Positions 7,743 to 61,435 of a stretch of 61,445 nt of DNA are shown here, one piece after another (within the stretch, counting starts at the first letter, position 1; each line of letters begins with the position of its first letter). Where the stretch lies: positions 1-61,445 of the forward strand of contig JAFZNG010000029.1 of NCBI GenBank assembly GCA_017551025.1, given 5' to 3'. This DNA is from Paludibacteraceae bacterium. Lineage in GTDB: Bacteria > Bacteroidota > Bacteroidia > Bacteroidales > Paludibacteraceae. The notes under the pieces were generated by a model. It was not told where the DNA came from. It saw only the letters and a program-made list of their open reading frames with translations, and ran no database searches. A program made the translations under genes and the position numbers.

Positions 7743-10700
7743 ATGGCTTTTAAACAAGATAATAAGAAAACGGGTTTCACCAAGATCACTATCGGTCTTG
7801 CTTCACCTGACGAAATTATGCAACTGTCGAGTGGTGAGGTGCTGAAACCGGAAACCATCAACTATCGTACCTACAAGCCCGAGCGTGACGGTCTCTTCTG
7901 CGAGCGCATCTTCGGTCCGACCAAGGACTATGAGTGCCATTGCGGTAAGTACAAACGTATCCGTTACAAGGGCATTGTCTGCGAGCGTTGTGGTGTGGAG
8001 GTTACCGAGAAGAAGGTGCGCCGTGAGCGTATGGGTCACATCAAACTCGTTGTGCCCGTAGCGCATATCTGGTACCTGCGTTCGCTGCCGTCTAAGATGT
8101 CGGCACTGCTGGGTATCCCCACCAAGAAACTGGATGCAATTGTATATTACGAGAAGTATGTAGTCATCAATGCGGGTGTACTCGCCGGTCAGGAACTGGG
8201 CGAAGAAATCGTAGCGAACAACATGCTGCTCGATGAGGACGAATACGCAGAACTCATGAGCCGTCTGCCGGCAGAGAACCAACTGCTCGAGGATAACGAC
8301 CCCGACAAGTTCATTGCTAAGATGGGTGCTGAGGCACTGTATGAGATGCTCTGCAATATCGACCTCGATAAACTCAGCTATGAGTTGCGCGACCTGGCCG
8401 ACAAGTCCAAGACTACTTCGGCTCAACGTCGTAACGATGCCCTGAAGCGTCTGCAAATCGTAGAGTCCTTCCGTGCTTCTAAGGGTCACAACCGTCCGGA
8501 ATGGATGATCCTGCAAGTAGTACCCGTGACGCCGCCTGAATTGCGTCCGTTGGTACCGCTGGATGGTGGACGTTTTGCTACGTCTGACCTCAACGACCTC
8601 TATCGTCGTGTCATCATCCGTAACAACCGTCTGAAACGACTCATCGAGATCAAGGCACCGGATGTAATTCTGCGTAACGAGAAGCGTATGCTCCAGGAGG
8701 CAGTGGACAGCCTCTTCGACAACAGCCGCAAGACAACGGCTATCAAGTCGGAGGCCAACCGCCCGCTGAAGTCTCTCTCGGATAGCCTCAAGGGTAAGCA
8801 AGGACGTTTCCGTCAGAACCTGCTCGGTAAACGTGTGGACTATTCCGCTCGTTCGGTTATCGTTGTAGGTCCTGAGTTGAACATGCACGAGTGCGGTCTG
8901 CCTAAGGAGATGGCTGCCGAGCTGTACAAGCCGTTTATCATCCGCAAGCTCATCGAGCGCGGCGTGGTAAAGACCGTCAAGTCGGCTAAGAAAATCATCG
9001 ACCGTCGTGATCCGGTGATCTACGAGATCCTGGAGCACGTCATGGAAGGACACCCCGTACTGCTCAACCGTGCTCCGACGCTGCACCGTCACGGTATTCT
9101 GGCATTCCAGCCGCGTATGATCGAGGGTAAGGCTATTCAGCTCCACCCGCTGGCATGCGCCGGATTCAACGCCGACTTCGACGGTGACCAGATGGCTGTG
9201 CACTTGCCGCTGAGCAACGAGGCTATCCTCGAGGCACAACTGCTGATGCTCGGTTCGCACAATATCCTTGACCCGGCCAATGGTAATCCTATTACCGTGC
9301 CTTCGCAGGATATGATCCTCGGTCTGTACTATATCACCAAACCCCGCAAGGGCGTCAAGGGTGAGGGCCTGACCTTCTACTCGATGGAGGAGAGCGAAGT
9401 AGCACTGAACGAAGGCAAGGTGGATATCCACGCACTGGTTAACGTACGTATCGACGATATCGTAGACGGTCAGCCCGTAACGCATATCATCGAGACTACG
9501 CCGGGTCGTGTGATGGTCAACCGCTTCGTACCGGCTGAGGTAGGCTACCAGAACGTAACCCTCAAGAAGGGTGCCGTAAAGGGCATTATCTCCAAGGTTA
9601 TCAAGACCTGCGGTGTAGCTCGTACGGCTAAGTTCCTGGACGATATCAAGAACCTGGGTTACTACATGGCCTTCCGTGGAGGTCTGTCGTTCAACCTGAA
9701 CGATATCCTCATTCCTGAGGAGAAAGCCGCCCTGATTGCTAAGGGTAACCAAGAGGTAGAGAACATCACCGAGCGTTACAACTTCGGTGAGATGTCCGAC
9801 GACGAGCGTTACAAGTCGGTAATCGATGCCTGGAATAAGGTGGACCAGGAGGTAACCGACGTGCTGATGAAGCACATGACCGAGGCCGATCAGGGATTCA
9901 ACTCCGTATACATGATGATGGATTCCGGTGCCCGTGGTAACAAGCAGCAGATTAAGCAGTTGGCCGGTGTGCGTGGTATGATGGCCAAGCCGCAGAAGGC
10001 TGGTTCTACCGACACACGTACGACGATCGAGAACCCTGTGCTCGCTAACTTCAAGGAGGGTATGTCGGTGCTCGAGTACTTTATCTCTACACACGGTGCG
10101 CGTAAGGGTCTTGCCGATACCGCTCTGAAGACAGCTGATGCCGGATACCTGACCCGTCGTTTGGTGGATGTATCCCACGACGTGATCATCAACGAGGAGG
10201 ACTGCGGTACACTGCGTGGTCTGACCGCTCGTGCTATCAAGCAGAACGACGTTGTTGTAGCTACGCTGACCCAGCGTATCCTCGGACGTGTATCCGTTCA
10301 CGATATTCTCGACAATGACGGTAAGCTCATCGTAGCTGCCGGCGAAGAGATTCGTGAGGATGCTTGCGAGGCTATCGAGGCAGCCGGTATCGAGGAAGTA
10401 GAAATCCGCTCGGTACTCACCTGCGAGTCCAAGCACGGCGTTTGCGCTAAGTGCTACGGCCGCAACCTCGCATCGCGTAAGATGGTACAGAAGGGTGAGG
10501 CTGTCGGCGTGATTGCCGCACAGGCCATCGGTGAGCCTGGTACTCAGCTGACGCTGCGTACCTTCCACTCCGGAGGTTTGGCAGGTAACGCCGCCACCGA
10601 GAATACCTACGCTATTCCGCGCGACGGTATTATTGATATTGAAGATCTGCGTACGATTACTACCGCCGAGGGCGATATCATCGTTGTAAGCCGTCTGAAC

Positions 10701-48301: not shown

Positions 48302-48326
48302 CAGCCGAAAAGGAGAGGATAGTCTT

Positions 48327-48542
48327 ATGAGCAAGTATGAAATACCTTTTTTGACGGCTTGTATTCAGGCTTTTGGGAGACGGTATGCTATGACCAGACA
48401 GGCGGCATATCGCTACTTGCAGGCGTATAAAGGTCTTGCGTTCCTGATTGAGTTCTACGATGTAGAGCATCTGCAATCGATGGAAGAGACGCTGGACGAT
48501 TTGCTCATGGTTTGTCAACGAAACGGAGGGACATTAGCATGA
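48327..48542 (+). CDS. DUF3791 family protein (operon 1)
   Basis: 71 residues: MSKYEIPFLTACIQAFGRRY, AMTRQAAYRYLQAYKGLAFL, then a C-terminal FYDVEHLQSMEETLDDLLMV. It matches DUF3791, a small helical family usually encoded before a DUF3990 gene and suspected to be its antitoxin. The stop overlaps the next ATG as ATGA. It is a distant paralogue of the 58,648 gene (shared pattern YRYLQ-YGALALxExxYxxxHxxSxExxLxxL). Here the DUF3990 partner is missing; see the remnant at 48,539. Confidence 0.82.
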   Translation: MSKYEIPFLTACIQAFGRRYAMTRQAAYRYLQAYKGLAFLIEFYDVEHLQSMEETLDDLLMVCQRNGGTLA

Positions 48543-48556
48543 TACTCTATCTATGA
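48539..48556 (+). pseudogene. Five-codon remnant of a DUF3990 gene
   Basis: ATG ATA CTC TAT CTA TGA encodes MILYL. The complete DUF3990 gene at 58,866 starts MILYHGST in the same context. The remnant overlaps the DUF3791 stop (GCATGA) and the next gene start (CTATGA), exactly as the full gene does in operon 2. An in-frame deletion of the body is the simplest reading. Confidence 0.7.
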
Positions 48557-48783
48557 CGCAGCCGACGCATCATCAAATAGCAACTTATCTAACCAATTAC
48601 GTGCTGAGCGAGTTGGTGAGATACGTCATGGAGGATAGGGGAAGCACTTTGGAGCAGGCGATGGAAATCGTGTATAATTCGCCTATTATGCCGGCTTTGC
48701 AAGACGAAGAGAATGAATTGTACGTCCAGAGTCCTGCATATCTCTATGAGTTAATGAATACGTTGCAACCAAAAGTTGCTTAA
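48553..48783 (+). CDS. Third gene of DUF3791 operon 1, small helical protein
   Basis: 76 residues: MTQPTHHQIATYLTNYVLSE, then LVRYVMEDRGSTLEQAMEIV and YNSPIMPALQDEENELYVQS. It is homologous to the 72-residue gene at 59,333: both have the pattern LxxxLMEERGxTxxxAxxxVYNSxxxxxLxDxxxxLYxQSxxYxYxLL. It is thus the conserved third member of the DUF3791-DUF3990 operon type, and here it has lost its toxin-like neighbour. Function unknown; it may be an accessory or antitoxin component. Confidence 0.78.
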   Translation: MTQPTHHQIATYLTNYVLSELVRYVMEDRGSTLEQAMEIVYNSPIMPALQDEENELYVQSPAYLYELMNTLQPKVA

Positions 48784-48897
48784 CCCTCGCCGCAGGGTAT
48801 AACTGCGACCGTCGGATCTAAGACGTAGAATGGGGTCCGGGTCTGACTAACTACTTTGCAGCATGAAATAATCATAATCCCTTAAATTCTTTTTGTT

Positions 48898-49329
48898 ATG
48901 GCTGAAAACACCACTTCTCCCGTTGCTCCGGCAATGCAGCACCGCACCAATCGCGGATTGGCTAAGATCTTCTTCCTGGGTATCCTGACCCTGGGTATTT
49001 ATCCTCTCGTTGTGGAGTCGCACATCTCCGAGGAACTCAACGTCGTAGCGTCCAAGTATGATGGACGTCGTACGATGCATTATCTGCTGATTGTCTTCCT
49101 GTTCTCGTGGATGACGCTGAATATCGCTACCCTTGTTTGGTGGCATCGCACATCGGATCGTATGCATGGCGAGTTGGTCCGCCGCGGTATCGACTATAGC
49201 TTCGGTGCCAGCGATTTCTGGCTCTGGAACGTACTCGGCTCGCTCATCCTTGTCGGTCCGTTTATCTACATCCACAAACGCATGAAAGCCATGAACCTCA
49301 TCAATGCCGACTACAACCAGAAAGGTTAA
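48898..49329 (+). CDS. DUF4234 membrane protein
   Basis: 143 residues. It begins with a polar tail, then AKIFFLGILTLGIYPLVVES (first hydrophobic segment), YLLIVFLFSWMTLNIATLVW (second), and FWLWNVLGSLILVGPFIYIH (third). DUF4234 features include LGIYPLVVESHISEELN and the C-terminal KRMKAMNLINADYN. Predicted inner-membrane protein of unknown function. The 114-bp gap upstream (48784-48897) holds a small ACCCT/AGGGT hairpin and no standard promoter. Confidence 0.82.
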   Translation: MAENTTSPVAPAMQHRTNRGLAKIFFLGILTLGIYPLVVESHISEELNVVASKYDGRRTMHYLLIVFLFSWMTLNIATLVWWHRTSDRMHGELVRRGIDYSFGASDFWLWNVLGSLILVGPFIYIHKRMKAMNLINADYNQKG

Positions 49330-49357
49330 ACCGGCTGGTTGCCGATAGCTAAATACC

Positions 49358-49392
49358 AACAATCTCGCTCTTTCGGGCGAGATTGTTTTTTT
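49358..49392 (+). terminator. Terminator after DUF4234 gene
   Basis: AACAATCTCGC (49358-49368), loop, GCGAGATTGTT (49377-49387), then T-run to 49392. Confidence 0.92.
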
Positions 49393-49397
49393 ACCTA

Positions 49398-50300
49398 CTA
49401 TGGTATGCGGAGGAACCAAACGATGTCGCTGTAGGTAGTTGAGTACCTATAGTTATACCCGCTGACATCGTGTCCATAAACAGTATATTGCATATTGGCG
49501 ATTAGGTAGTACTTCCCGAGTATACTGTCATAGAGGTAGTATCCTTGATTATCGCGGTAGATAGTATACGTCTGGCTGTGCATGTATGTCACCGAGCCAT
49601 TGGCATTCTGGCTGAGACCTAGTGCCGTATAGTTGCCTACAAACACCTCCTGAGTACTGCTACTCGTCGTGCTCGGGGGCGTGGTTGCAGCATTGAGGCT
49701 GGCTGCGGAAGCCGGATTATTGATAAGCACGCTGGAGTTGTCGATATCAAAGGCGGCGTAGGAGTAGCCATTCACGGTCAGCGAACTGACCATGGGCGCA
49801 TTATTTGTCGTTGTTCGTGCCGAGATTTTGCGGTACACATACGTGATTTTCGGCGTGACAAACACCAGGGTGTTCCGGTCTTTTGAGACCAAGATCTTAT
49901 GGTACTTCATCGAGTTGTTGTCGATAAAGGTATTATTCATCATGTACGACTCCTGAACAGGCATTTCGTATGCTGCAAACTGTCCGGAAAAGCCCGACAG
50001 CGTCTCATCGCCCTTATAGGCGGCCTTGTTGCTCGAGCGGTAGAATGTCTTGGTGGCGTACATACCGCTGGTACTCTTATCGCCATGGATAAAGGAATTG
50101 CTCAGGTCTTTACCCGCGGGGTCGCAGATTTGCAGGGCATTGGCCGTAAGTTTTATCGAATACTCTTTTGCGTATCGCAATTTGCCGAAATCGTTGGCGT
50201 TCGATGCGTTGATGGTGCGATCGTAGGTGTAGTGAATCACTTGCGCATGGACACATACGGCCATGGTCATCAGCGTGAGAGCAAAGAAGAACTTTTTCAT
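49398..50300 (-). CDS. Secreted protein of unknown function
   Basis: 300 residues from ATG 50300 (MKKFFFALTLMTMAVCVHAQ, signal peptide cut near 20). The rest is polar with no recognised domain: a central region on KYHKILVSKDRNTLVFVTPK, a Ser/Thr/Asn-rich linker (about 195-215) and a Tyr-rich C-terminal region (YTIYRDNQGYYLYDSILGKY). Probably periplasmic or surface-associated. It has its own promoter; the stop lies 6 bp past the neighbouring terminator T-run. Confidence 0.72.
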   Translation of the reverse strand: MKKFFFALTLMTMAVCVHAQVIHYTYDRTINASNANDFGKLRYAKEYSIKLTANALQICDPAGKDLSNSFIHGDKSTSGMYATKTFYRSSNKAAYKGDETLSGFSGQFAAYEMPVQESYMMNNTFIDNNSMKYHKILVSKDRNTLVFVTPKITYVYRKISARTTTNNAPMVSSLTVNGYSYAAFDIDNSSVLINNPASAASLNAATTPPSTTSSSTQEVFVGNYTALGLSQNANGSVTYMHSQTYTIYRDNQGYYLYDSILGKYYLIANMQYTVYGHDVSGYNYRYSTTYSDIVWFLRIP

Positions 50301-50332
50301 AAGGCTATCGTGTTTTAGTTGTTTCGACGGTG

Positions 50333-50364
50333 CAAAGGTACGAAAAAAAATCCGAATGCACAAA
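50333..50364 (-). promoter_or_regulatory. Promoter of the 49,398-50,300 gene
   Basis: Minus strand TTTG (50361-50364), 20 bp, TACCTTTG (50333-50340), preceded by G and followed by CACCG. Confidence 0.85.
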
Positions 50365-50389
50365 TTTATTGCAAAAATCACGATTTATA

Positions 50390-50421
50390 TTTGCATAATT
50401 AGAAATATTTTTGTAATTTTG
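50390..50421 (+). promoter_or_regulatory. Promoter of the AbiE-like operon
   Basis: TTTG (50390-50393), 20 bp, TAATTTTG (50414-50421), preceded by G and followed by CAGCC. Confidence 0.85.
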
Positions 50422-50447
50422 CAGCCGAAAGATGCAAAGGTGAAGGA

Positions 50448-50774
50448 ATGAAATCCGTTCAGAAACATAGTTTGGAGCGAAAACAATTGCTCTTAAAGCA
50501 GTTGTGCGATGGCGGTTACTTATGGTCGTACAAGGCTGTAGGCGGCAATGCTATGCTTTCGGACGAAGAGTTGATCTTGAACGGCCTATCACATCTTGAG
50601 TTTGAGGATATGCCTATGTTGTTCTCAGCTTTCCCTTATCGCCAAATCAAGCAGGTATGGCAGCAACGCATGTTGCCATATCCCGAATACTACGGCGTCC
50701 TCAACTTGCTTTTGGCGGCGCTCTTCTTTCACATCAAAAGCCCCAAGAAATATATTGCAAACTATGTGGCGTAA
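50448..50774 (+). CDS. Putative antitoxin partner of AbiEii-like toxin
   Basis: 108 residues: MKSVQKHSLERKQLLLKQLC, then GGYLWSYKAVGGNAMLSDEE and a C-terminal helical part LLLAALFFHIKSPKKYIANY. It overlaps the start of the nucleotidyltransferase by 11 bp, the layout of a coupled toxin-antitoxin pair. I do not recognise an AbiEi winged helix, but small Bacteroidota proteins of this type regularly precede AbiEii-like genes. Antitoxin role inferred from position. Confidence 0.65.
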   Translation: MKSVQKHSLERKQLLLKQLCDGGYLWSYKAVGGNAMLSDEELILNGLSHLEFEDMPMLFSAFPYRQIKQVWQQRMLPYPEYYGVLNLLLAALFFHIKSPKKYIANYVA

Positions 50775-51420
50775 CGGACTTTGTGATAATACCTTGCGAG
50801 TCTTTGACCAGGTCTCTCGCTTGAATTGTATCAAAGACTTATATCTTTGTGGCGGAACAGGGATTTCGCTGTTGCTTCAGCATCGTCAGAGTGAAGACTT
50901 GGATTTCGAGTTGCTCAACTACCGAGGTGATATTAGGCAATTGGATATGTCTGGTATCAGTAATGAATTGGTTTCCGTTTTTCCGGATTGTAAGCGCGAG
51001 GTATTGGGTCCGCAACATATCCAGTTCTACGTTGGCGACCATGTCAAGTTGTCTTTTTTTGCACCTAAGAACCGTGTTCCGGCCTTGCATGTTGGTTTTA
51101 GCTATAACAATCTTAGGACGGTAGACGCGCAAGATGCGTTGGGCATGAAACTCTTTACGATTACCGTTAGGAGTCTGTATCGTGATTATTATGATATCTA
51201 TTCGCTGCTGCAGGCGGGGCTATCTTTTGAAGAAGGGTTGGCTTATGCTTTAAAGTTTACACGCCACCAGGTCCATTCCAAAGCGGTATTGTCGGCTTTA
51301 ATAACTCCAACTTTGTATCCCAAGCCTCAAAATTTTGATTTGATGCAACCCAAATACAATGTCTCGCCTGAAGAAATGGCTGACTATTTTATGGGAATAA
51401 TAGCCGCACGAAAGAAATAA
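50764..51420 (+). CDS. AbiEii/AbiGii-type nucleotidyltransferase toxin
   Basis: 218 residues from ATG 50764 (MWRNGLCDNTLRVFDQVSRL); the open frame extends upstream inside the previous gene. The nucleotidyltransferase motif is LYLCGGTGISLLLQHRQSED followed by LDFEL, the GG-(T/S)-x-D-x-D type. Further conserved: DALGMKLFTITVRSLYRDYY-DIYSLL. Related AbiEii and MenA-type toxins add nucleotides to tRNA or other targets and can abort phage infection. Forms a two-gene operon with the preceding ORF and its own promoter. Confidence 0.85.
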   Translation: MWRNGLCDNTLRVFDQVSRLNCIKDLYLCGGTGISLLLQHRQSEDLDFELLNYRGDIRQLDMSGISNELVSVFPDCKREVLGPQHIQFYVGDHVKLSFFAPKNRVPALHVGFSYNNLRTVDAQDALGMKLFTITVRSLYRDYYDIYSLLQAGLSFEEGLAYALKFTRHQVHSKAVLSALITPTLYPKPQNFDLMQPKYNVSPEEMADYFMGIIAARKK

Positions 51421-51432
51421 GTTATTTAGCCT

Positions 51433-51588
51433 ATGTCTTGCTTACGTGTGCTTTTGGCTATTATTTTTCCGCCGCTGGCTGTGGCAGACCAGGGTTGCGG
51501 GTCGTTTACGATCGTCTTCCTGCTTACCCTCTGCGGCTGGATCCCCGGCGTCATCGGCGCCCTGGTCATCCTGAATAAGAATGAATAA
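51433..51588 (+). CDS. YqaE/Pmp3 family membrane microprotein
   Basis: 51 residues, two membrane helices: LRVLLAIIFPPLAVA and a second FTIVFLLTLCGWIPGVIGAL. It has the family hallmarks PPLAV and GWIPGxIxALxxI. Pmp3/YqaE proteins are small hydrophobic inner-membrane proteins linked to salt or membrane stress. The variant lacks the charged loop of some relatives (ADQGCGS instead). It sits 12 bp after the toxin stop and 22 bp before the next gene. Confidence 0.85.
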   Translation: MSCLRVLLAIIFPPLAVADQGCGSFTIVFLLTLCGWIPGVIGALVILNKNE

Positions 51589-51610
51589 CCATTGAAAAAT
51601 AACAAAGAGT

Positions 51611-52072
51611 ATGAAACGTTTGGTATTTCTTTTTAGCGTAATGTGTGCGATTGCGATATCCGCAAGTGCGCAACGATTAACAGGTTCGGCTGATGCATGG
51701 TTGAAATTTCAGCGTGAGCAATGTGTCTTCAGGTTAACGGCGTATGGCTTGTATGAAGATGGTATTGAGAAAAACCGGATCGTTCCGCAAGGCAAAAATG
51801 CCAATGAGGGAATTGGTTTTGATAATGCGGACCATTTCTACCAGTTGAATACGCTTGACGGAAGCTTCATCTACGATTGCCGAATCAATGGACAATATCT
51901 ATACCTAACGAATCAAAAGCGAGTCTTAAACGGTCAACAAGTAGGCTTTGATCCGCAATATTACAATTGGATCAAACTGCTATGGTATGAGAATCATAAC
52001 GGCAAATTCATTCTCTTCACGGTAGATTCAATGAACACCTACCGATATTTTGAGTATGTAATTGCGCTGTAA
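51611..52072 (+). CDS. Secreted protein of unknown function
   Basis: 153 residues with signal peptide MKRLVFLFSVMCAIAISASA (cut near 20). The mature part is Tyr/Asn-rich, with LKFQREQCVFRLTAYGLYED and a C-terminal FTVDSMNTYRYFEYVIAL. No domain recognised. It is the first of the same-strand run leading into the TIR cluster, 56 bp before the TIR gene, and may belong to that operon. Confidence 0.7.
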   Translation: MKRLVFLFSVMCAIAISASAQRLTGSADAWLKFQREQCVFRLTAYGLYEDGIEKNRIVPQGKNANEGIGFDNADHFYQLNTLDGSFIYDCRINGQYLYLTNQKRVLNGQQVGFDPQYYNWIKLLWYENHNGKFILFTVDSMNTYRYFEYVIAL

Positions 52073-52128
52073 AATAAATTAAATCTATATATTACAAGAA
52101 GGACGACAATAATACCCCTGCAGAATAA

Positions 52129-53127
52129 ATGGAAAAATCATACGACGTCTTCATAAGTTATTCACGCGCGGACTACGTGGATGAAAACAAGCAGGTGATA
52201 CCCGGTAATGTGGTATCGCAAATCAAGGAATTGCTGAGCCGGGAGGGCATCAGTTTTTGGTTTGATGAGGAGGGTATCTATTCCGGGCAGAATTTCGTGA
52301 CGAAGATAGTTGCCGGTATCGAGGATTCAAAAGTGCTATTGTTTCTCTCTTCTGAGAACTCGAATAAGTCGCGTTGGACATGTAAGGAGATCGCAACGGC
52401 CGATGAATTGGGTATGCATATCATTCCGGTGCGTATCGACCAAACGCCATACAATCGTCAGGTGCTCTTTCGTATCGCCGATTTAGATTACGTGGAGTAT
52501 TACGTAGACCCTGAGCAGGCTATGCAGGACGTAGTGCATGCCATTAAGACCTATCTGCAGGAGTACAATGCTAAGAAGCAACGTGAGGCTGAGAAGAAAA
52601 AGCAAAAAGACGCAGCGGACGAGCTGCGCAGAAAGATAGAAGAGGAGCGCCGCCAATTGGAAGAAGAGCGTAAGCGCCTGGAAGAAGAACGCCGAGCAAT
52701 GGAGCAGGAGGCGCGTAAAGTAGCTGCTGCCAGAGAGGCCGAACGCAAACAACGCGAGGAGAAAGCTTCAGAGGCGGAGGAGATACGAAAGCGCAAAGAA
52801 GCCCAGGAAAGAAGAATAGCCGAAGCTGAGGCTAAACGCCAAGCAGAAGAACGCGCCATTCGCAAAGCCGAGGAAGAAGCTCGCCGTGCTGTGGTCGAAA
52901 AGGAACGACAGCATCGCGAGGAGGAACGTAAGTCAATCGAACAGACAAGTGGAATCCGTATCTGCTCTAAGTGTGGAAAACAGATTTCCGCAACAGCAGC
53001 GTTTTGTAAGTATTGTGGTGCCCGATTCATCAGTGTTAAAGTCTCAGATCGCAAATGCCCTAAATGCGGCTTTAGCGTGAGCGCAGAAGCGAGATTCTGT
53101 AAGAAATGTGGAACTAAAATCGTATAA
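52129..53127 (+). CDS. TIR - coiled coil - double zinc-ribbon protein
   Basis: 332 residues. The TIR domain covers about 1-135: YDVFISYSRADYVDE, FDEEGIYSGQNF, LLFLSSENSNKSRWTCKEIA with a Trp-x3-Glu (W83, E87) matching the catalytic glutamate of TIR NADases, and HIIPVRIDQTPY. Residues about 145-275 are a highly charged Arg/Glu/Lys-rich coiled coil. The C-terminus has two CxxC-x(n)-CxxC ribbons (CSKCGKQISATAAFCKYCG and CPKCGFSVSAEARFCKKCG). TIR domains in bacteria commonly cleave NAD+ or signal in defence. The next gene follows after 5 bp. Confidence 0.87.
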   Translation: MEKSYDVFISYSRADYVDENKQVIPGNVVSQIKELLSREGISFWFDEEGIYSGQNFVTKIVAGIEDSKVLLFLSSENSNKSRWTCKEIATADELGMHIIPVRIDQTPYNRQVLFRIADLDYVEYYVDPEQAMQDVVHAIKTYLQEYNAKKQREAEKKKQKDAADELRRKIEEERRQLEEERKRLEEERRAMEQEARKVAAAREAERKQREEKASEAEEIRKRKEAQERRIAEAEAKRQAEERAIRKAEEEARRAVVEKERQHREEERKSIEQTSGIRICSKCGKQISATAAFCKYCGARFISVKVSDRKCPKCGFSVSAEARFCKKCGTKIV

Positions 53128-53132
53128 AATTT

Positions 53133-53762
53133 ATGAAATGTCCAAATTGCGGCAAGGAAATTGCCAATGATAGTGTGTACTGTGAATTTTGCGGGGAAAA
53201 AGTAGTATTTCAAAGAAATACGAATCAAGAGACGGATCGCAATGCTGCCCTAATGTGGGGCGGCTTAGCTAGTATTGCTGTAGCAAGTATGTATAGCCTA
53301 TTTGTGTTGGGAAACGAAATTGATTGGTATCTGGGCTATAATCGCATTAGTATTTTAGGACGTTCGTTGATGGATTTATTTCTTCCTATATTGTTAATTT
53401 CGTTAGTCATAGTCGTTCTTTATAAATCGTGGAAGCTTAAAAACAAGTTCTTGCAAAATTCTTCAGTAACTACGAAATGGCTCTTGTGGGGGGTAGTTTG
53501 CGGTGCTATAAACATCTTAGTAGGAGTTGGACACTATACATGGATAATGTTGACAATGGAGGGGGCTAAATTCGAATATGTGGTATGGGATTTTATTTAT
53601 GAAGAGAGCGGAAATTTTTTGATAATTATCGGATTTGCTTGCCTTTTATTGTGGGGGTCCAAACAGCCGAGAGTTGAGACAACTATGGTAGATAAGTCCA
53701 TTAAGCCGTGGCATATACTAGTAATTGCATTAGTAATATCCATGATTATTGTATTAGTATAA
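53133..53762 (+). CDS. Zinc-ribbon membrane protein
   Basis: 209 residues. The N-terminal zinc ribbon CPNCGKEIANDSVYCEFCG (3-21) is almost the same as the ribbon of the 58,043 gene (CPKCGKVIANDSVYCEYCG). About four or five hydrophobic segments follow (starting near ALMWGGLASIAVASMYSLFV, LFLPILLISLVIVVLY, WLLWGVVCGAINILVGV, FLIIIGFACLLLWG, WHILVIALVISMIIVLV). The membrane part is not DUF805. Base composition is more A+T-rich than the neighbours. Likely operonic with the TIR gene. Confidence 0.8.
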   Translation: MKCPNCGKEIANDSVYCEFCGEKVVFQRNTNQETDRNAALMWGGLASIAVASMYSLFVLGNEIDWYLGYNRISILGRSLMDLFLPILLISLVIVVLYKSWKLKNKFLQNSSVTTKWLLWGVVCGAINILVGVGHYTWIMLTMEGAKFEYVVWDFIYEESGNFLIIIGFACLLLWGSKQPRVETTMVDKSIKPWHILVIALVISMIIVLV

Positions 53763-53804
53763 CTAATATGAGTGTCGTATAAAGGTATTAAACATTATTA
53801 TTTT

Positions 53805-53993
53805 ATGAAAAAAATATCCTATCTTTTATTTCTAATGCCGCTGTTGGCATTTACATCGTGTGTTCAATCCAACAATGTGAACAAAGCCGTCAACGGCGAC
53901 AACGATGAAGGACACAATTCGTACAAAAGTGTTCAAGTTGATTATGAGTCCAATGAAGTAAATGAATCCAATACGGAAACTAATTATAATTGA
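53805..53993 (+). CDS. Short lipoprotein, N-terminal paralogue of the next gene
   Basis: 62 residues from ATG 53805 (MKKISYLLFLMPLLAFTSCV): lipobox FTSC. After the Cys, QSNNVNKAVNGDNDEGHNSY parallels QITNENKAVNGSNSEGGNTY of the next gene, but the protein stops after an Asn/Glu-rich tail (SNEVNESNTETNYN). It is therefore either a stand-alone short lipoprotein or a duplicate that has lost the C-terminal domain. The next gene begins 1 bp after its stop. Confidence 0.75.
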   Translation: MKKISYLLFLMPLLAFTSCVQSNNVNKAVNGDNDEGHNSYKSVQVDYESNEVNESNTETNYN

Positions 53994-53994
53994 T

Positions 53995-54492
53995 ATGAAA
54001 TACTCTAAATTTTCTTTCGTTTTAATTGTGCTTTCTGCCTTGTCGTCATGCATTCAAATCACGAACGAAAACAAGGCTGTCAATGGTAGTAATTCCGAAG
54101 GTGGTAATACATATTCACAGGAGAGCTATGCCTATAAGAATAATGAATACTCGAGTTCGACAGTAGAGACTACATCCTCTCGTGAGAGTAATTCAGCCGC
54201 TCCTGCGTCTTTTTACATGACAGGAACTGCTGCGGGGGACCCTTGTTCTATACAATTTGATTTTAATACAGGTCGTGGGCAATATATCCAGCACCTTAAT
54301 AGTGGAAAAGAAACTAAACGTCAATTGCGTTTGAGTAGTTATGATGGCAGCAGACTCGTGTTGGATGCATATAATTCACGAGGAGAGCAAGTAAGCAGTT
54401 TTAAAGGAACTATGAGCAGTAATGGCAATAGATATTCCGGAAAGATAACCAATAATAAGGGAGGCTCTATCAACTTTGATGTGAGTCGATAA
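53995..54492 (+). CDS. Lipoprotein with C-terminal domain shared with the TIR-DUF805 protein
   Basis: 165 residues from ATG 53995 (MKYSKFSFVLIVLSALSSCI); lipobox LSSC. A Ser-rich linker (about 40-75) leads to a roughly 90-residue domain: FYMTGTAAGDPCSIQFDFNT, LRLSSYDGSRLVLDAY, YSGKITNNKGGSINFDVS. The same domain, with the pattern LxSYD-x-LxLxAY and YxGxxTNxxGGSIxFxxS, is the C-terminus of the 55,450 TIR protein. Predicted to be membrane-anchored in the cell envelope. Confidence 0.8.
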   Translation: MKYSKFSFVLIVLSALSSCIQITNENKAVNGSNSEGGNTYSQESYAYKNNEYSSSTVETTSSRESNSAAPASFYMTGTAAGDPCSIQFDFNTGRGQYIQHLNSGKETKRQLRLSSYDGSRLVLDAYNSRGEQVSSFKGTMSSNGNRYSGKITNNKGGSINFDVSR

Positions 54493-54555
54493 TTTTGCAA
54501 TGTTTTTAATCCATGAAATGTCCACATTAATTGATCACTTAATATCTATATACCT

Positions 54556-55407
54556 ATGAAAAAAATAGTACTCATTATTGCCGGTGTTGCAATGTCTTTG
54601 ATGATTTGTGCACAACCATCTGTGCAGTTTAAGAACGTTAAAAAATGTGCCTATTATATAGGAAAAGAAAAATATGAGGCCTATGGGGATGAGGGAAAAC
54701 TCTTGTATCCCTACCAAAAAAACGAAATCAATATCCATTGGCCGAAGAAAAAGGGCTTGTCCCCCACAACCGAGTTTGCTCTCAAGCGAGCAATCATAGA
54801 AACTATCTATAATTTAGGCGGATTGGATTATTCGATCGTGGAGGATACTGCGCTTATTATGAGCGGGAATGTATTTGACGTGCTGATCTCTGATTTCTTC
54901 GAAATCGAGGAAGATTGCGTACCGACCTCCTCGAAGCGTATTGCTAAAAAAGATGTAGAGACTTTCGGTGTAGAAGGTATTCTGGAATCACAAATCAAGT
55001 ATCAAAAACACGGAGTGCTCTCCCTGCAATATGATGCCTATTACATTGATCACGACCATATTAATCGAAATAGATGTGGCGCTATTAGTTTTGATGTGGA
55101 GCGGGGTGCTGCTCTTGAATTGGGTGATGTAATTCAAGTAGATTCGATCGACGAATTGATACAACTGGTCAACGAGGCCGTTTGGGCTTTTCAAAAAGAA
55201 AATGAGATAGAAGATTGGAATTCATATGTGGTTAGTTTGGAAGTGGAAGACATGTATGACTGGTATATAGTTGATGATACGTTGATGTTTGTTTTTCAAA
55301 AATATGATATAGCCCCCGGTGTATATGGCGTGGTAGAACTGGGTATTCCTGTTCGTGAACATAAATCTCTCTTCCGCCCAGACGCCCTTAAGTATTGGGG
55401 ATTATGA
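54556..55407 (+). CDS. Secreted DUF3298-like protein
   Basis: 283 residues with a signal peptide (MKKIVLIIAGVAMSLMICAQ). Residues about 130-265 match the DUF3298 (RsiV-like) fold: LSLQYDAYYIDHDHINRNRC, GAISFDVERGAALELGD and DDTLMFVFQKYDIAPGVYGV-VELGIPV. DUF3298 proteins are periplasmic; in RsiV the fold binds lysozyme. No sigma factor is adjacent here, so an anti-sigma role is not supported. It lies within the TIR cluster, 42 bp before the second TIR gene. Confidence 0.77.
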   Translation: MKKIVLIIAGVAMSLMICAQPSVQFKNVKKCAYYIGKEKYEAYGDEGKLLYPYQKNEINIHWPKKKGLSPTTEFALKRAIIETIYNLGGLDYSIVEDTALIMSGNVFDVLISDFFEIEEDCVPTSSKRIAKKDVETFGVEGILESQIKYQKHGVLSLQYDAYYIDHDHINRNRCGAISFDVERGAALELGDVIQVDSIDELIQLVNEAVWAFQKENEIEDWNSYVVSLEVEDMYDWYIVDDTLMFVFQKYDIAPGVYGVVELGIPVREHKSLFRPDALKYWGL

Positions 55408-55449
55408 TGGAATAATTAAGTCTCATATAGTCCGAATAAATAACATCGT

Positions 55450-56823
55450 ATGAATAGAATATTTATCTCTTATAAGCGCGCGGACAAAGATCTTGTCTTT
55501 CCGCTTAAGGACAAGATAGAAGCCGCTACCGGCGAACGGTGCTGGATCGACCTGGAGGGTATTGAGAGCGATGCTCAGTTTGTCAACATTATCATGCGGG
55601 CAATCGACCAGGCGGACTTGTTCCTCTTTATGTTCTCCCAAAATCACGCTCGGATCGAAAACTTCGAAACCGACTGGACTGTTCGTGAGATCAGTTATGC
55701 GCAGAAGAAGAAAAAACGCATCGTTATCGTCAATCTTGACCAGACGCCGATGAACGATTGGTTCGATTTTATGTTCGGCCTCAAGCAGCAGGTAGATGCT
55801 ACCTCTGAGCAGGCCGTAGAACGACTGACCCAGGACATCTGCCGCTGGCTTGATATCACTCCGCCCAAGCCAAAGCCCGAGAAAGAACCGGAGAAAATCA
55901 TAGAGAAAGTAGTGGAGCAGAAGGTAGTGTATGTTCCTGCAAACGATACCTACATGCCGCTTGGTGTGGCAGTCGTTCGCGGCCTGCGCAAATATAAAAC
56001 GTTCCGGGGACGCGCTACGCGTTCGGAGTTCTGGTGGTGGATACTGTTCCGCGAAGTAGTATTGCTGAATGTGATGGCGATCTTCCTGTGCTTCGGTCTT
56101 GGAACGTCGACATTCGATGATGTCTTCGGGTTGCTATGGATGCTTGTCTGGCTGCTACTACTACTGCCTACTGCTGCGGTATGGGTGCGCCGTTGCCACG
56201 ACCTGAATATGAGCGGCTGGTGGGCACTATGTCCGGTATATGACATAGTGCTTGCGCTCATGGATGGTCAGCGCGAGGCGAATACGTATGGCGAAGTGGA
56301 ACATGTCGATATACGAAACGAGAGTCCGCTATGGCAGAAAGCGCAGCGCTATTGGATTCCATTCGTGGTCGGTCTACTCAGCGTGCTTTGGCTGGTGCTG
56401 ATCATAGAGTATGGGACAAATGCAGAAGAAGTTGATGACGAGCAGACCGTAGAACAAGTGACGGATGATTCGCCCGCTGCAAACGTGCTGAACTATGATT
56501 TGTATCTCGAGGGAACGATGGTAGATCCGGCTGAATTGATCTATTCGGCATCCAAACGGGAAGGCAAATATTACGTAGATCGTAAAGGACGTCGCGTGAC
56601 GAGAGATGTGAGGCTATGGAGTTACGATGTACAAACGGGTGAACTCCTGTTGGAAGCATATGCGGATTCTGTCTATACCGGTCGATTTGTTGGAGAGTTG
56701 ACTATATCCGGCGACCATGCTATGTATACCGGTACGTTTACCAATACTTCCGGAGGTTCGATCCGTTTTAATCTAAGCGGTAGTGCTACTCAGGGAAATA
56801 ATTACGAAACCGAAGCGCTATAG
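55450..56823 (+). CDS. TIR - DUF805 - C-terminal domain membrane protein
   Basis: 457 residues. The TIR domain is about 1-135: IFISYKRADKDLVFPLKDKI, CWIDLEGIESDAQF, TDWTVREISYAQ with W76 and E80 in catalytic-site positions, and IVIVNLDQTPMND. A Pro/Glu-rich linker precedes a DUF805 domain (about 169-285; FRGRATRSEFWWWILF, RRCHDLNMSGWWALCPVYD) with several membrane helices. One more helix (about 327-345, WIPFVVGLLSVLWLVLIIEY) leads to a domain (about 365-450) shared with the 53,995 lipoprotein. The TIR half would be cytosolic and the shared domain probably on the far side of the membrane. Confidence 0.87.
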   Translation: MNRIFISYKRADKDLVFPLKDKIEAATGERCWIDLEGIESDAQFVNIIMRAIDQADLFLFMFSQNHARIENFETDWTVREISYAQKKKKRIVIVNLDQTPMNDWFDFMFGLKQQVDATSEQAVERLTQDICRWLDITPPKPKPEKEPEKIIEKVVEQKVVYVPANDTYMPLGVAVVRGLRKYKTFRGRATRSEFWWWILFREVVLLNVMAIFLCFGLGTSTFDDVFGLLWMLVWLLLLLPTAAVWVRRCHDLNMSGWWALCPVYDIVLALMDGQREANTYGEVEHVDIRNESPLWQKAQRYWIPFVVGLLSVLWLVLIIEYGTNAEEVDDEQTVEQVTDDSPAANVLNYDLYLEGTMVDPAELIYSASKREGKYYVDRKGRRVTRDVRLWSYDVQTGELLLEAYADSVYTGRFVGELTISGDHAMYTGTFTNTSGGSIRFNLSGSATQGNNYETEAL

Positions 56824-56870
56824 TACGCATGTCTCTTCGCTCATACATGTTGGTGAAAATTTTATATACC

Positions 56871-58028
56871 ATGAAACAACGATTTTTAACTCTTATCTTT
56901 CTTGCCTGCATGGCTGTCACCGGTACGGTGGCCAACGATGCCAGTTTCTGGGCTTCAGGCAACCAACTCGTGCCGCTGCGCGAGACCTCTATTCGTGTCA
57001 CTAAGGAAATTCTGTCGATCGATCTCCGTGACGACGGAATGGCATATGTAGATGTATATTATGAGTTTACTAATCCCGAATCGACCGCCAAGACCCTGCT
57101 TATGGGCTTTGAGGCCGATCCGCCTTATCCCGATGGCGGTCCTGACGGATGGTCGCTTACAAGCCATTCCGCCCATCCCTATATCGAGAACTTCACTGTC
57201 GAGATCAACGGTCAGCGTCAGACCTATCGCAATGCCATCAGCCATCCCGGTAAATTCCATCCGATGAAGGTGGAGGGAATGACTATCACGGATGGAGGAT
57301 TGGCTCCTATGGAGTATAACGAGGAAGGTGATTACTACACTACGGACGGACCGCAGGAGGCATTTGCCTTTGTCTATTACTTCAATGCTACCTTCCGCCC
57401 CGGCATTACCAAGGTGCATCATACCTATCGTTACAAGATGGGCTCGTCAGTCTATTCCTATTATTTCCTTGACTATAAGTTGACGCCTGCTACGCGTTGG
57501 GCAAATCATCAAATTGATGATTTTACGCTCATACTCAGTGCGAAGCAGACGGCGAAGCATTTCTATCTTAATCGTAATTGCGTGCCCGGTTTGAAACCTG
57601 TCGTGGCGAGCGGCAAGGCAAAGATGCGCAAAGCTCCCGAGCACTGGTCGTTTATGGACGAGCCGTATTGGGAGTTTTCGATCCGCAAGGGGGCGGTGAA
57701 ATTCCACGCCAAGAACTTCCGTCCGAAGAAAGAACTGTTTTTGCGCAGTGCCACGTTTTGTGACGGCGAACCGGTAGGCTATACTTACGACCGCGGTAGC
57801 ACATGGCCGCTCTGCTACCATGCCGAAGACATACCCGATCGTGCCCAAGCCATCCGTCTGATCCGCAACCTGCCGTATGCCAGTCGTGGACGCGTGTTCC
57901 GGGACAAGACGCTCCAGCGCTACTTCGAATCGCTCTGGTGGTATATGCCCAACCCCAATTATACGGACGACACCTCCGACTTCACCCCCGTAGATTGGAA
58001 CTATATCTATTTCAAATTCGACGAATAA
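56871..58028 (+). CDS. Secreted DUF4424-like protein with YARHG domain
   Basis: 385 residues from ATG 56871 (MKQRFLTLIFLACMAVTGTV, signal peptide). The large N-terminal part (about 20-290) has DUF4424-like features: KEILSIDLRDDGMAYVDVYY-EFTN, LLMGFEADPPY and HHTYRYKMGSSVYSYYFLDY. The C-terminal region (about 330-375) is a YARHG domain: IRLIRNLPYASRGRVFRDKT, LQRYFESLWWYMPNPNY. YARHG domains are extracellular and thought to bind cell-wall ligands. It is flanked by the TIR-DUF805 gene and a zinc-ribbon-DUF805 gene. Confidence 0.8.
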   Translation: MKQRFLTLIFLACMAVTGTVANDASFWASGNQLVPLRETSIRVTKEILSIDLRDDGMAYVDVYYEFTNPESTAKTLLMGFEADPPYPDGGPDGWSLTSHSAHPYIENFTVEINGQRQTYRNAISHPGKFHPMKVEGMTITDGGLAPMEYNEEGDYYTTDGPQEAFAFVYYFNATFRPGITKVHHTYRYKMGSSVYSYYFLDYKLTPATRWANHQIDDFTLILSAKQTAKHFYLNRNCVPGLKPVVASGKAKMRKAPEHWSFMDEPYWEFSIRKGAVKFHAKNFRPKKELFLRSATFCDGEPVGYTYDRGSTWPLCYHAEDIPDRAQAIRLIRNLPYASRGRVFRDKTLQRYFESLWWYMPNPNYTDDTSDFTPVDWNYIYFKFDE

Positions 58029-58042
58029 TAATTGATAAGCTT

Positions 58043-58489
58043 ATGTATTGTCCCAAATGTGGCAAAGTGATTGCCAATGACAGCGTGTACTGCGAGTACT
58101 GCGGAACGAAAGTCGACCAACCGGAAACATCTGCCCCTGCAGAGCGCCCTATGATGCCGTTCGGACAAGCTGTGAAGGTCTGTTTTCAGAAGTATGCTAC
58201 CTTCTCCGGTCGCGCTTCGCGTGCCGAGTACTGGTGGTTCTACCTGCTCTATTTTATTCTCTATATACTAGCCTTTGCAGTGGATTATGGACTTATCGGT
58301 ATGTATACCAGTGTGTTCACGCGTATTGTGGCGTTAGCATTTATGCTGCCGATGTTGGCTGCCGGTGTACGCCGTCTGCACGACACCAACCATAGCGGCT
58401 GGTGGATCCTCTGCCCGATATACAATATCGTGCTGCTGTGCTACGGTAGCGACCCTGGTGCAAATGATTACGGAACATTGGAGAATTAG
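58043..58489 (+). CDS. Zinc ribbon - DUF805 membrane protein
   Basis: 148 residues from ATG 58043, 14 bp after the previous stop. The zinc ribbon CPKCGKVIANDSVYCEYCG (3-21) nearly repeats that of the 53,133 gene. The DUF805 domain (about 38-140) has FSGRASRAEYWWFYLLYF and RRLHDTNHSGWWILCPIYN, the same motifs as the 55,450 protein. DUF805 proteins are inner-membrane proteins of unknown function. This is the last gene of the cluster; a terminator follows. Confidence 0.88.
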   Translation: MYCPKCGKVIANDSVYCEYCGTKVDQPETSAPAERPMMPFGQAVKVCFQKYATFSGRASRAEYWWFYLLYFILYILAFAVDYGLIGMYTSVFTRIVALAFMLPMLAAGVRRLHDTNHSGWWILCPIYNIVLLCYGSDPGANDYGTLEN

Positions 58490-58516
58490 CCCCAAAAACA
58501 TTCTCTCCTCTTCTTT

Positions 58517-58544
58517 ACGGCTCACTTCGGTGGGCCGTTTTTTT
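58517..58544 (+). terminator. Terminator after TIR cluster
   Basis: ACGGCTCAC-TTCG-GTGGGCCGT (58517-58538) followed by a T-run to 58544. An almost identical hairpin occurs at 59,645, so the two bracket DUF3791 operon 2. Confidence 0.92.
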
Positions 58545-58583
58545 GCCCATGACAATCCTTCTGCTCGAAAAATGCAAAGAATA

Positions 58584-58647: not shown

Positions 58648-58869
58648 ATGGCAAAAACCATCATTGATAAGATTGAATACCTCGTGTTGTTGGTGGCAGA
58701 GTTCGCTCATTTGCATAAGATGTCTGAGGTGCAATCATACCGCTATCTTCAGCAGTATGGGGCGTTGGCTCTTTGCGAGAAACACTATAATATTATGCAC
58801 ACGCTCTCCGTAGAGGACAACTTGCATACCTTGCAAGAATACTGCAAGCGGAAAGGAGGTAATCTATGA
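58648..58869 (+). CDS. DUF3791 family protein (operon 2)
   Basis: 73 residues from ATG 58648 (MAKTIIDKIEYLVLLVAEFA); upstream in-frame codons overlap the promoter. DUF3791 features: SYRYLQQYGALALCEKHYNI and MHTLSVEDNLHTLQEYCKRK. Its stop overlaps the DUF3990 start as ATGA. First gene of a three-gene operon; probable antitoxin by position. Confidence 0.85.
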   Translation: MAKTIIDKIEYLVLLVAEFAHLHKMSEVQSYRYLQQYGALALCEKHYNIMHTLSVEDNLHTLQEYCKRKGGNL

Positions 58870-59336
58870 TTCTTTACCATGGTTCGACGGTAGATATTGA
58901 GCGTATCGACTTGGCAAAATCCAAACCCAATAAGGATTTTGGACGTGCATTCTATCTCTCTGCCGACTACGACCAAGCCTTAGAGATGGCGCAGTTCAAA
59001 GCTGAGTTCGCCGAATTACCTCCGGTTGTTAATGTATATCGCTTCGATGAAAAATTGCTGCAAGAGCTCAAGTACAAGCGCTTTGAGACATATTCGGAGG
59101 AATGGGCGCATTTTGTCTATAACCATCGTACCGACCCGCAAGGACGCACGCTGCACGACTACGATGTTGTGTTCGGACCGATTGCCAACGATACCATCGG
59201 CGCACAAATAACTCGTTTTAAGCAAGGTTACATATCGTTTGAGCAGTTCCTTCAACGCATTCAATATCCCAAAGGTATCACTTTCCAATATGCTTTTTGC
59301 ACGCAAAAGGCGATTGATAAACTGATGAAACAATGA
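58866..59336 (+). CDS. DUF3990 protein, ADP-ribosyltransferase-like toxin candidate
   Basis: 156 residues: MILYHGSTVDIERIDLAKSK, then DFGRAFYLSADYDQALEMAQ. The start LYHGST and the GRAFYLS strand resemble the first two conserved strands of ADP-ribosyltransferase folds (H-Y-E type), the fold I believe is assigned to this family. Further conserved: WAHFVYNHR and DYDVVFGPIANDTI. It overlaps both neighbours by ATGA (58866-58869 and 59333-59336), so three proteins are made in coupled fashion. A toxin role is inferred from family context, not shown. Confidence 0.83.
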   Translation: MILYHGSTVDIERIDLAKSKPNKDFGRAFYLSADYDQALEMAQFKAEFAELPPVVNVYRFDEKLLQELKYKRFETYSEEWAHFVYNHRTDPQGRTLHDYDVVFGPIANDTIGAQITRFKQGYISFEQFLQRIQYPKGITFQYAFCTQKAIDKLMKQ

Positions 59337-59551
59337 ACGTATCGCAAGCAGAATTTCAGAATATGAAAGAGGAGATAGTGAAAGACCTGATCTCTCGTCT
59401 CATGGAGGAACGCGGCTTAACGATGCAAGAAGCGTTCGACAGAGTGTATAATTCTCGTCTGTTTGAAAAACTCAACGACCCGAAAACAGGCTTGTATTTC
59501 CAGTCCTCCGGCTATGTGTATAGCTACCTCTTAGATGAAATTGATGCCTAA
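59333..59551 (+). CDS. Third gene of DUF3791 operon 2, small helical protein
   Basis: 72 residues: MNVSQAEFQNMKEEIVKDLI, SRLMEERGLTMQEAFDRVYN, and LYFQSSGYVYSYLLDEID. Homologue of the 48,553 gene. The conserved VYNS and LYxQSxxYxYxLL motifs and the fixed order mark it as part of the same module. Function unknown. Confidence 0.8.
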   Translation: MNVSQAEFQNMKEEIVKDLISRLMEERGLTMQEAFDRVYNSRLFEKLNDPKTGLYFQSSGYVYSYLLDEIDA

Positions 59552-60199: not shown

Positions 60200-61435
60200 A
60201 TGGATAAGAAGACGAGACAACAAGTAGTCTGTGACTACATCAGTGCCAACTATCTGGATTATGATCGTCTGCGCCATGACGTGATCTCGAACAAAGTGCA
60301 AATTATGGACGAAAGACGAACGGCTAATGGCGAACGTGCGATCTTCTGGCGCGACATCACCACTTCCGACATCAACGATATCGTGTGCGACTGTTCGATA
60401 GAGAGCGGACTGAACATCACCGCCAAAGAGGTACTGGCCATGCTGCAGTCCCATCGTCTGCCGGATGTGCACCCGCTACGCGAGTACGTCTATTCCTGCC
60501 GCGAATACACGCCGGATCAGGGAGACTGGATCGCTGATCTTGCCTCGCAAGTGACGGTAGAAGGAGGTGAACAGGAACAAACACTGTGGCGCAACTATTT
60601 CCACAAGTGGTTTGTGGCCATGGTGGCCTCGTGGTTGCGTGATGACGTTGTCAATCAGCAAGTGCTGGTACTTATCGGTCGCCAGGGTATCTTTAAGACT
60701 ACATGGCTCGAACACCTGTTACCTCCGGAACTACGTGCGTATGGTTGCAAGATGGCCAATAGTACGACGCTCAATAAGGACGAACGGCTACGTATCGCCG
60801 AGTACGGACTGATTGCCCTGGATGAGATTGACTCGATGGGTATTAAGGAACTCAACGTTATGAAATCGGTCATTACCGCAAGTGATGTCTCTGAGCGAGC
60901 TGCCTACGGTTACACCAAGGAACGCCGAATCCGTCTGGCCTCGTTCTGTGCCAGTGGTAACAAGCAGGAATTCCTGACCGACTTGACAGGCAACCGCAGA
61001 TGGCTGCCATTCCATGCCGAGAGGATCCAGAACCCGTTCTATACCTCGCTCCCGTACGAACGCCTGTACGCACAGGCGCTGTACGAAATCGAGAACGACT
61101 TCCAGTATTGGTTCGACCTGGACGACATTGATGCGCTTGAGGTGCACAACGATGACTTCCGTGCCCAGGAGAACGAGGAGCAGTTGCTCAGTATCTACTT
61201 CGACGTACCGGCTGAGGGACGCGGACAGTTTATGACGACCGCCGAGATCAGCGACAAACTCGTCACGCGTGGGTCTATCAAGAAGCCGATGCCAATCAAT
61301 CGTCTGGGAATGCTTCTCAAAAAGGCCGGTTATAAAGATGTGCGAAGAGGAGCACTGCGAGCACGTGGATGGCTTGTTTACGAGCGTACGCTCGAGGAAG
61401 TGGCTGCTAATCGGAATAGAAAGGACATAGACTAA
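60200..61435 (+). CDS. VapE-family NTPase (virulence-associated E-like)
   Basis: 411 residues. P-loop QVLVLIGRQGIFKTTWLEHL (about 150-169), Walker B with aspartate/glutamate YGLIALDEIDSMGIKELNVM, and an arginine-rich sensor region ASFCASGNKQEFLTDLTGNR-RW. The family is related to helicase-like NTPases encoded by phages, satellites and pathogenicity islands. The N-terminal region (about 1-110) lacks a visible primase domain. The C-terminal part (about 340-400; PMPINRLGMLLKKAGYKDVR) resembles the DUF3874-type tail found in Bacteroidales versions. It marks the start of a mobile element that continues past the window. Confidence 0.85.
   Translation: MDKKTRQQVVCDYISANYLDYDRLRHDVISNKVQIMDERRTANGERAIFWRDITTSDINDIVCDCSIESGLNITAKEVLAMLQSHRLPDVHPLREYVYSCREYTPDQGDWIADLASQVTVEGGEQEQTLWRNYFHKWFVAMVASWLRDDVVNQQVLVLIGRQGIFKTTWLEHLLPPELRAYGCKMANSTTLNKDERLRIAEYGLIALDEIDSMGIKELNVMKSVITASDVSERAAYGYTKERRIRLASFCASGNKQEFLTDLTGNRRWLPFHAERIQNPFYTSLPYERLYAQALYEIENDFQYWFDLDDIDALEVHNDDFRAQENEEQLLSIYFDVPAEGRGQFMTTAEISDKLVTRGSIKKPMPINRLGMLLKKAGYKDVRRGALRARGWLVYERTLEEVAANRNRKDID

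Follow-up and report, generated by a model that had tools for sequence, protein, structure and literature searches.

A TIR, DUF805 and zinc-ribbon gene cluster in a Paludibacteraceae genome as a possible envelope-sensing set

We analysed a 61,445-nucleotide stretch (the window) from a Paludibacteraceae bacterium (assembly GCA_017551025.1, contig JAFZNG010000029.1), which is contig 24 of a 1.94 Mb genome and carries a cluster of nine open reading frames (ORFs), genes A to I, all on the forward strand between 51611 and 58489 with intergenic gaps of 1–63 bp (Table 1). An initial annotation made from the sequence alone had described this same-strand run as a unit; the nine ORFs are present, but the boundary did not hold, since a Pmp3 gene was missed and an AbiEii-type pair probably shares the transcript. 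Pfam searches recovered the TIR domains proposed for genes B and G (TIR_2, 4e-17 and 2e-14), the DUF805 domains of G (3e-21) and I, and the secreted DUF3298 and DUF4424-YARHG proteins F and H, the YARHG part of H also matching PDB 4g2a (E 6e-10). The two lipoproteins, recognised by eye from their lipoboxes, are D and E, and D is a short protein related to the N-terminal portion of E. B has two zinc ribbons in addition to its TIR, and the ribbons of C and I, which had been called near-identical, are both there but share 19 of 25 residues, with synonymous sites saturated. G combines in one chain a TIR domain, three segments called as hydrophobic and a domain of outer type, a topology that is predicted from sequence. 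Overall, this is an unusual cluster, and the reading that we favour is of a local form within a broader assortment of receptor-like and soluble TIR fusions found in some members of the genus.

The run reuses its modules. The further domain that had been noted in both E and G is borne out by sequence comparison (31% over 105 residues, E 3e-7). This outer domain, of about 95 residues, was found on E, on G, on a UBA3742 protein, on a zinc ribbon-transmembrane (TM) protein of genome G401, whose ribbon and TM segment were identified by eye, and on a secreted protein of genome G406, with 12 invariant columns across the five sequences. It has no Pfam family at cut-off and no credible PDB match, and within the searches made it is a new shared domain. 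Additionally, the only two DUF805 genes of the genome both lie in the cluster, together with two of its five TIR_2 genes. Upon placing genes at random, none of 200,000 trials brought both DUF805 genes and two TIR genes into such a span, a result that local (tandem) duplication would give as well.

The Trp-x3-Glu that the initial annotation had read in both TIR domains is present, as W83-E87 in B and W76-E80 in G. The B TIR matches the structures of AbTIR (7uwg, E 0.0012), of the CRISPR-associated TIR Cat1 (9mud, E 0.00028) and of plant TIRs; its glutamate region aligns with those of AbTIR and Cat1, E87 lining up with the WTNYE stretch of AbTIR, and the G TIR matches Cat1 weakly (E 0.053). The mark of NAD-cleaving TIRs, a W-x3-E glutamate aligned with AbTIR, is thus found here, in B by direct alignment. 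An NADase output fits the conserved glutamate, the motif alone being no proof, and W-x3-E also occurs in TIRs that act mainly as scaffolds. As far as the available portions of two surveys go, TIR domains are used both as NAD+-cleaving enzymes and as scaffolds (PMC8635717, PMC7075850). Upon comparing gene G with its UBA3742 orthologue (one gene pair), we observe that the TIR is 92% identical, with nonsynonymous divergence (dN) of 0.05 and a proportion of synonymous differences (pS) of 0.71; the DUF805 part is 55% identical (dN 0.38), the outer domain 63% (dN 0.34), and the linkers have dN of 0.28 and 0.63. The conserved unit is the TIR module, which is under strong constraint, and not the gene set.

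Related TIRs (E<=1e-10) occur in 13 of 178 genus genomes, this one included. Among 20 of these proteins scanned with Pfam, one of them this genome's own protein on contig 18, the TIR is joined to BspA-type leucine-rich repeats (LRR) in eight, Sel1 in three, FGE in two and WG in one, and stands alone in four; the remaining two have a Macro domain before the TIR and a weak Lcl_C match below cut-off, respectively. A hydrophobic segment follows the TIR in 11 of 41 rows under a simple hydropathy rule, including four of the eight LRR proteins, and the others look soluble. The W-x3-E motif was not found in 10 of these 41 rows (repeats included), all of them below 50% identity. Of 27 rows picked by hand from the genus matches and from other loci of the analysis, with divergent, truncated or repeated rows dropped (among them L133, L134, L143, L144, L148 and L151-L153), all retain the glutamate and 24 retain the tryptophan. 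The tree of these 27 TIRs contains a G-type clade of 15 rows (support 100/99) that mixes LRR, Sel1, WG, SH3-like and DUF805 partners; gene B groups with a contig-18 TIR (99/95), and each of the two types is represented once in the window and once on contig 18. At E<=1e-14 a B-type TIR was found in one of 345 phylum genomes, this one, and a more distant relative (43%) occurs in G446. The TIR-DUF805 fusion is this genome's alone among the matches listed for 295 order genomes, and one more is present in UBA3742. Diverse architectures are also described for prokaryotic TIR groups in the accessible text of PMC7075850.

Three further observations concern these relatives. In four proteins (L139, L135, L136, L149) a BspA-type LRR follows the TIR after one hydrophobic segment, a Toll-receptor-like layout with the order reversed. 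The Macro-TIR fusion (L131:339-1457) lies beside TIR-WG and TIR-Sel1 genes and hints at NAD-derived signalling; macro domains bind ADP-ribose. Some 35 residues are left of a further G-type TIR (about 82% identical; L104:9323-9427), ahead of other TIR genes, indicating gene turnover.

The likely unit is probably wider than nine genes, because the nearest full promoter lies at 50390 and the terminator at 58517, a span that would take in Pmp3 and the AbiEii-type pair. The motif scan used a Bacteroidota consensus; its full matches on the forward strand beyond position 47000 are at 48270, 50390, 58584 and 59711, and sites at 50842 and 54490 resemble the -7 element but lack the second one. The terminator scan gave 23 candidate sites across the region, where 11.6 were expected. 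The 108-residue AbiEii partner has no Pfam or NCBIfam match.

Table 1. Genes and signals of the cluster and its probable transcript (window coordinates).
Feature	Coordinates	Strand	Basis
Promoter motif, Bacteroidota-type (TTTG, spacer, TAATTTTG)	50390..50421	+	Only full match in 48302-58583 on this strand
Small partner protein of AbiEii, 108 residues, probable transcript head	50448..50774	+	ORF; pair recurs in genus
AbiEii-type nucleotidyltransferase	50764..51420	+	PF08843 8e-14 (read from 50596)
Pmp3/YqaE small membrane protein	51433..51588	+	PF01679 6e-12
Gene A, secreted protein without family, hydrophobic N terminus	51611..52072	+	Pfam, hydropathy
Gene B, TIR (1-130), then a long E/R/K-rich charged region (~130-270) and two zinc ribbons, without a called TM segment	52129..53127	+	Pfam
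Gene C, zinc ribbon (1e-5) and four hydrophobic segments	53133..53762	+	Pfam, hydropathy
Gene D, short lipoprotein	53805..53993	+	Lipobox by eye; conserved beside E homologue in G427
Gene E, lipoprotein with shared outer domain (~54202-54489)	53995..54492	+	Lipobox by eye, sequence comparison
Gene F, secreted DUF3298 protein	54556..55407	+	PF11738 2e-9
Gene G, TIR (1-130), DUF805 (182-282), one more hydrophobic segment (301-319) and the outer domain (~350-450)	55450..56823	+	Pfam, hydropathy
Gene H, secreted DUF4424-YARHG protein	56871..58028	+	DUF4424 1e-7, YARHG 6e-11 (Pfam)
Gene I, zinc ribbon (8e-7) and DUF805 (3e-24)	58043..58489	+	Pfam
Intrinsic terminator, 9-pair stem then T run	58517..58538	+	Terminator scan

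We tentatively read the cluster, with a probability of roughly 0.42, as a lineage-specific, probably co-transcribed envelope-sensing set around the receptor-like TIR protein G. We infer that G spans the inner membrane, with its TIR in the cytosol, DUF805 and the further segment in the membrane and the small domain outside. Because lipoprotein E carries the same outer domain, it may, with D, share or compete for the ligand of G, and the secreted proteins F and H would sit at the cell wall, a placement suggested by the lysozyme and cell-wall binding ties of their families. An outside signal would then bring the TIR domains of G together, and the cytosolic TIR/zinc-ribbon partner B could be recruited by like-with-like contacts, TIR to G and zinc ribbon to C or I, and might relay or amplify the signal by NAD+ cleavage or as a scaffold. 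Of the envelope-sensing device with cytosolic TIR outputs that had been proposed initially, the module sharing, the envelope theme and the cytosolic-type TIR parts stand.

The families of F and H supply the envelope theme. DUF3298 is one half of the outer lysozyme-receptor part of RsiV, and its related structures are not near sigma factors, according to the available part of PMC5014341. Compared with the RsiV/sigma-V lysozyme receptor of Bacillus, gene F has this one of the two RsiV outer domains, but the cluster has no DUF4163 match or sigma factor, and F looks secreted whereas RsiV is membrane-bound. For YARHG, peptidoglycan binding has been proposed, and the domain occurs behind a zinc ribbon and TM segment (excerpts of PMC3355149); the DUF4424-YARHG architecture has been solved in lpg2210 (PMC3848476, in its accessible sections). 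Gene H shares this architecture, and genes C and I have zinc ribbon and TM heads, but in the window zinc ribbons are joined to DUF805 or to another membrane protein, and H lacks them.

Several observations weigh against an envelope-sensing set. The nine genes occur together in none of the 177 other genus genomes (6.9 kb DNA query); the query matched somewhere in 21 of 178 genomes, this one included, and in the 20 others each match lay within a single gene. These searches scored two first-look candidates per genome, so single-gene matches are possibly under-counted and very divergent copies missed. The nine-gene set is not a conserved system, and the exact set was found in this genome alone. 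The TIR-DUF805-outer domain gene is solitary in UBA3742 (genome G343), and DUF4424-YARHG genes likewise stand without the other cluster genes in the stretches read of G343, G281 and G362. Furthermore, 30 of the 41 genus TIR-fusion rows have no called TM segment, and the receptor layout is not the rule. Co-transcription is argued from spacing and motifs, and the -7-like site at 54490 could begin a second transcript. GC content at third codon positions (GC3) comes in blocks, 0.34-0.40 in C-F and 0.56-0.60 in G-I versus a mean of 0.57 over 17 larger window ORFs, and because of this mosaic a recent assembly of the cluster is suggested. By Pfam, gene F has DUF3298 without DUF4163; it has no PDB match, and it scores 22.5 bits with the RsiV model of NCBIfam, whose cut-off is 250. 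Within the available text of PMC3355149, the YARHG motif is weaker in Gram-negatives, where the ligand is perhaps different or none, and the zinc ribbon-YARHG proteins of that paper's set are all Gram-positive.

The absence of the set from the other genus genomes and the GC3 mosaic also speak for accretion, in which an accessory hotspot past rpsO gathered unrelated genes, the modules are common because the genus is rich in them, and the functional units are only D-E, DUF805-Pmp3, the AbiE pair and G alone; we regard this as a tenable explanation, though a doubtful one. Small sets do occur on their own: the D-E lipoprotein pair keeps its order in G427, where it has its own promoter-like site (by eye), DUF805-Pmp3 is paired in G281, and the AbiEii pair is present in nine other genomes of the genus, matching at 78-82% DNA identity over about 1 kb, the match ending near the stop codon, with shorter or weaker matches elsewhere. 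The rpsO flank, too, differs in its cargo. An nth-to-rpsO block with uvrB, rplS and murI is common to the window (19.8-26.9 kb), G343 and G281, the named genes having 80-100% protein identity; the gene names in this block were given by eye, as were the labels SH3-like, FhaA-like, DUF3987-like, CHAT-like and ADP-ribosylglycohydrolase-like. Immediately beyond rpsO, the TIR-DUF805 gene comes first in G343 and is followed by a DUF3987-like gene. In G281 an ADP-ribosylglycohydrolase-like gene leads a series of DUF805, Pmp3 and a secreted protein, which closes with the same DUF3987-like gene as in G343. In the window, 24 kb of other genes separate rpsO from the cluster, and VapE follows the cluster at 60200. 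At 2-4 kb from rpsO the cargo differs again, with a TIR-TM-LRR gene at 4 kb in G440 and Pmp3 at 2.4 kb in G419. In seven other genomes Pmp3 has no DUF805 in the stretch read, and rpsO lies near it in one. The region past rpsO has the look of an accessory hotspot whose cargo recurs. The initial annotation had looked to conserved association of the genes in other genomes; the full set gave none, but a weaker positional link appears, as TIR-DUF805 in UBA3742 and DUF805-Pmp3 in G281 follow directly the block that lies 24 kb before the cluster in the window. Against accretion stand the domain-sharing chain, E-G-I and G-B-C, inside a single compact run, and the presence in that run of both DUF805 genes and two of the five TIR genes of the genome. 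As an observation in its own right, the ADP-ribosylglycohydrolase-like gene of G281 (L086, about 7957-9276) occupies the place in the hotspot where UBA3742 has its TIR-DUF805 gene.

Bacterial TIR proteins are known mostly as phage-defence enzymes. An anti-phage system, in which phage envelope damage is sensed and the TIR NADase either exhausts NAD+ or produces a signal that arrests the cell, would agree with the NADase glutamate of the TIRs, with the AbiEii-type genes at the head, with the variable, hotspot-like placement, and with B, which passes the Pfam ThsB_TIR cut-off (24.9 bits, cut-off 21.2; G has no ThsB_TIR match). We nevertheless consider it improbable. A link to phage defence, for which the initial annotation had proposed checks, was not found in the database searches: PADLOC gave no complete system, two of the nine proteins having partial matches to TIR (best 1.5e-9) and to coil models, with a weak MkoB match in F (0.005), and the NCBIfam TIR matches, including ThcB4, fell far below cut-offs. 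We therefore did not file the cluster as a known defence system, PADLOC, NCBIfam and Pfam having returned TIR, coil, ribbon and individual domains and no system. The cluster shares with Thoeris (ThsB and ThsA) a TIR_2, possibly ThsB-like TIR with the NADase glutamate, but its TIRs are fused to membrane or zinc-ribbon parts, and PADLOC and Pfam found no ThsA-like effector with a SLOG or macro receptor among the cluster proteins. A search of phages with G gave no match, and neither G nor the B TIR has a relative in viral contigs; mobile-element cargo was rejected on this ground. On plasmids, G matched 53 records, the 15 matches listed all falling in its DUF805 part, and B matched one distant TIR. 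The DUF805 regions of G and I (window 55990-56300 and 58150-58480) match phrog_12855, a 'moron' membrane protein family (1e-10 and 5e-14, PHROGs), and because of these matches such membrane modules appear to travel in phages too. In the same database the B TIR has matches in two families without assigned function, and those of VapE are to helicases and primases of phages.

Very improbable, in our view, is that the TIRs serve solely as adaptors, enzymatically inactive, in a circuit for cell-wall stress tied to a kinase/PP2C/FtsW-penicillin-binding protein (PBP) cluster on contig 18, which two TIRs (84% identical to that of B and 73% to that of G) flank, since the glutamate is kept in all 27 selected rows and since G346 and G406, where the kinase core recurs, show no TIR within the 20 kb read of each genome. 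On the same recurrence, the contig-18 cluster was rejected as the true home of the TIRs. That cluster (L023-L025, about 111000-139500, reverse strand) encodes a kinase with a zinc ribbon, an FHA protein, an FhaA-like protein, PP2C and a 1484-residue FtsW/RodA-transpeptidase fusion; zinc ribbon-TM proteins are present, with one TIR gene on each side. We take it to resemble the actinobacterial fha-pstP-rodA-pbpA-pkn operon. Across the order, its kinase was found at E<=1e-40 in one of 247 genomes, this one, and the only other genome of the same genus listed there is G281.

Beyond the envelope-sensing set itself, a bolder and rather unlikely proposal is that the genus holds diversifying bacterial Toll-like receptors, in which a near-invariant cytosolic TIR would be joined by repeated swapping to outside or cytosolic sensors (LRR, FGE lectin fold, SH3-like, DUF805 with the new domain) and would signal to shared B-type TIR partners, reporting envelope attack by phage, lysozyme or rivals. 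Like Toll-like receptors, gene G is predicted to combine TIR, membrane segment and outside sensor in one protein, and four genus relatives are TIR-TM-LRR proteins; the genus proteins differ in having the TIR N-terminal (the reverse order) and LRRs of BspA type, G has DUF805 and the new outer domain, and no descent is implied. If true, a constant TIR with changing membrane and surface modules would be a bacterial parallel to animal Toll receptors, and the lineage would allow one to test directly if bacterial TIRs can signal what happens beyond the cell. The cluster also offers E80 and E87 as clear sites for mutants. In the open-access literature searched we found no paper combining 'TIR domain' with DUF805, and among the titles listed none describing proteins that join TIR to a zinc ribbon, to BspA or Sel1 plus LRR, or, in bacteria, to membrane and LRR parts.

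Other TIR genes of the genus have different company. A TIR-TM-FGE gene lies beside CHAT-like, FHA-trypsin-like and degenerate-kinase-like genes (by eye) both on contig 30 of this genome (L026) and on contig 22 of G281 (L084-L085). This neighbourhood of TIR-FGE with CHAT-like and FHA-trypsin-like genes is shared with the TIR/FGE/caspase/trypsin conflict systems described in the accessible part of PMC7159879, whereas the window cluster has no vWA, MoxR, STAND or peptidase parts. On either side of the cluster, at 48327-48783 and 58654-59551, we observe repeated small-gene modules of DUF3791 and a short partner, toxin-antitoxin-like by eye, with DUF3990 on the right side. Finally, a DUF4234 small membrane protein at 48898-49329 adds to the small membrane-domain proteins encoded close to the cluster.

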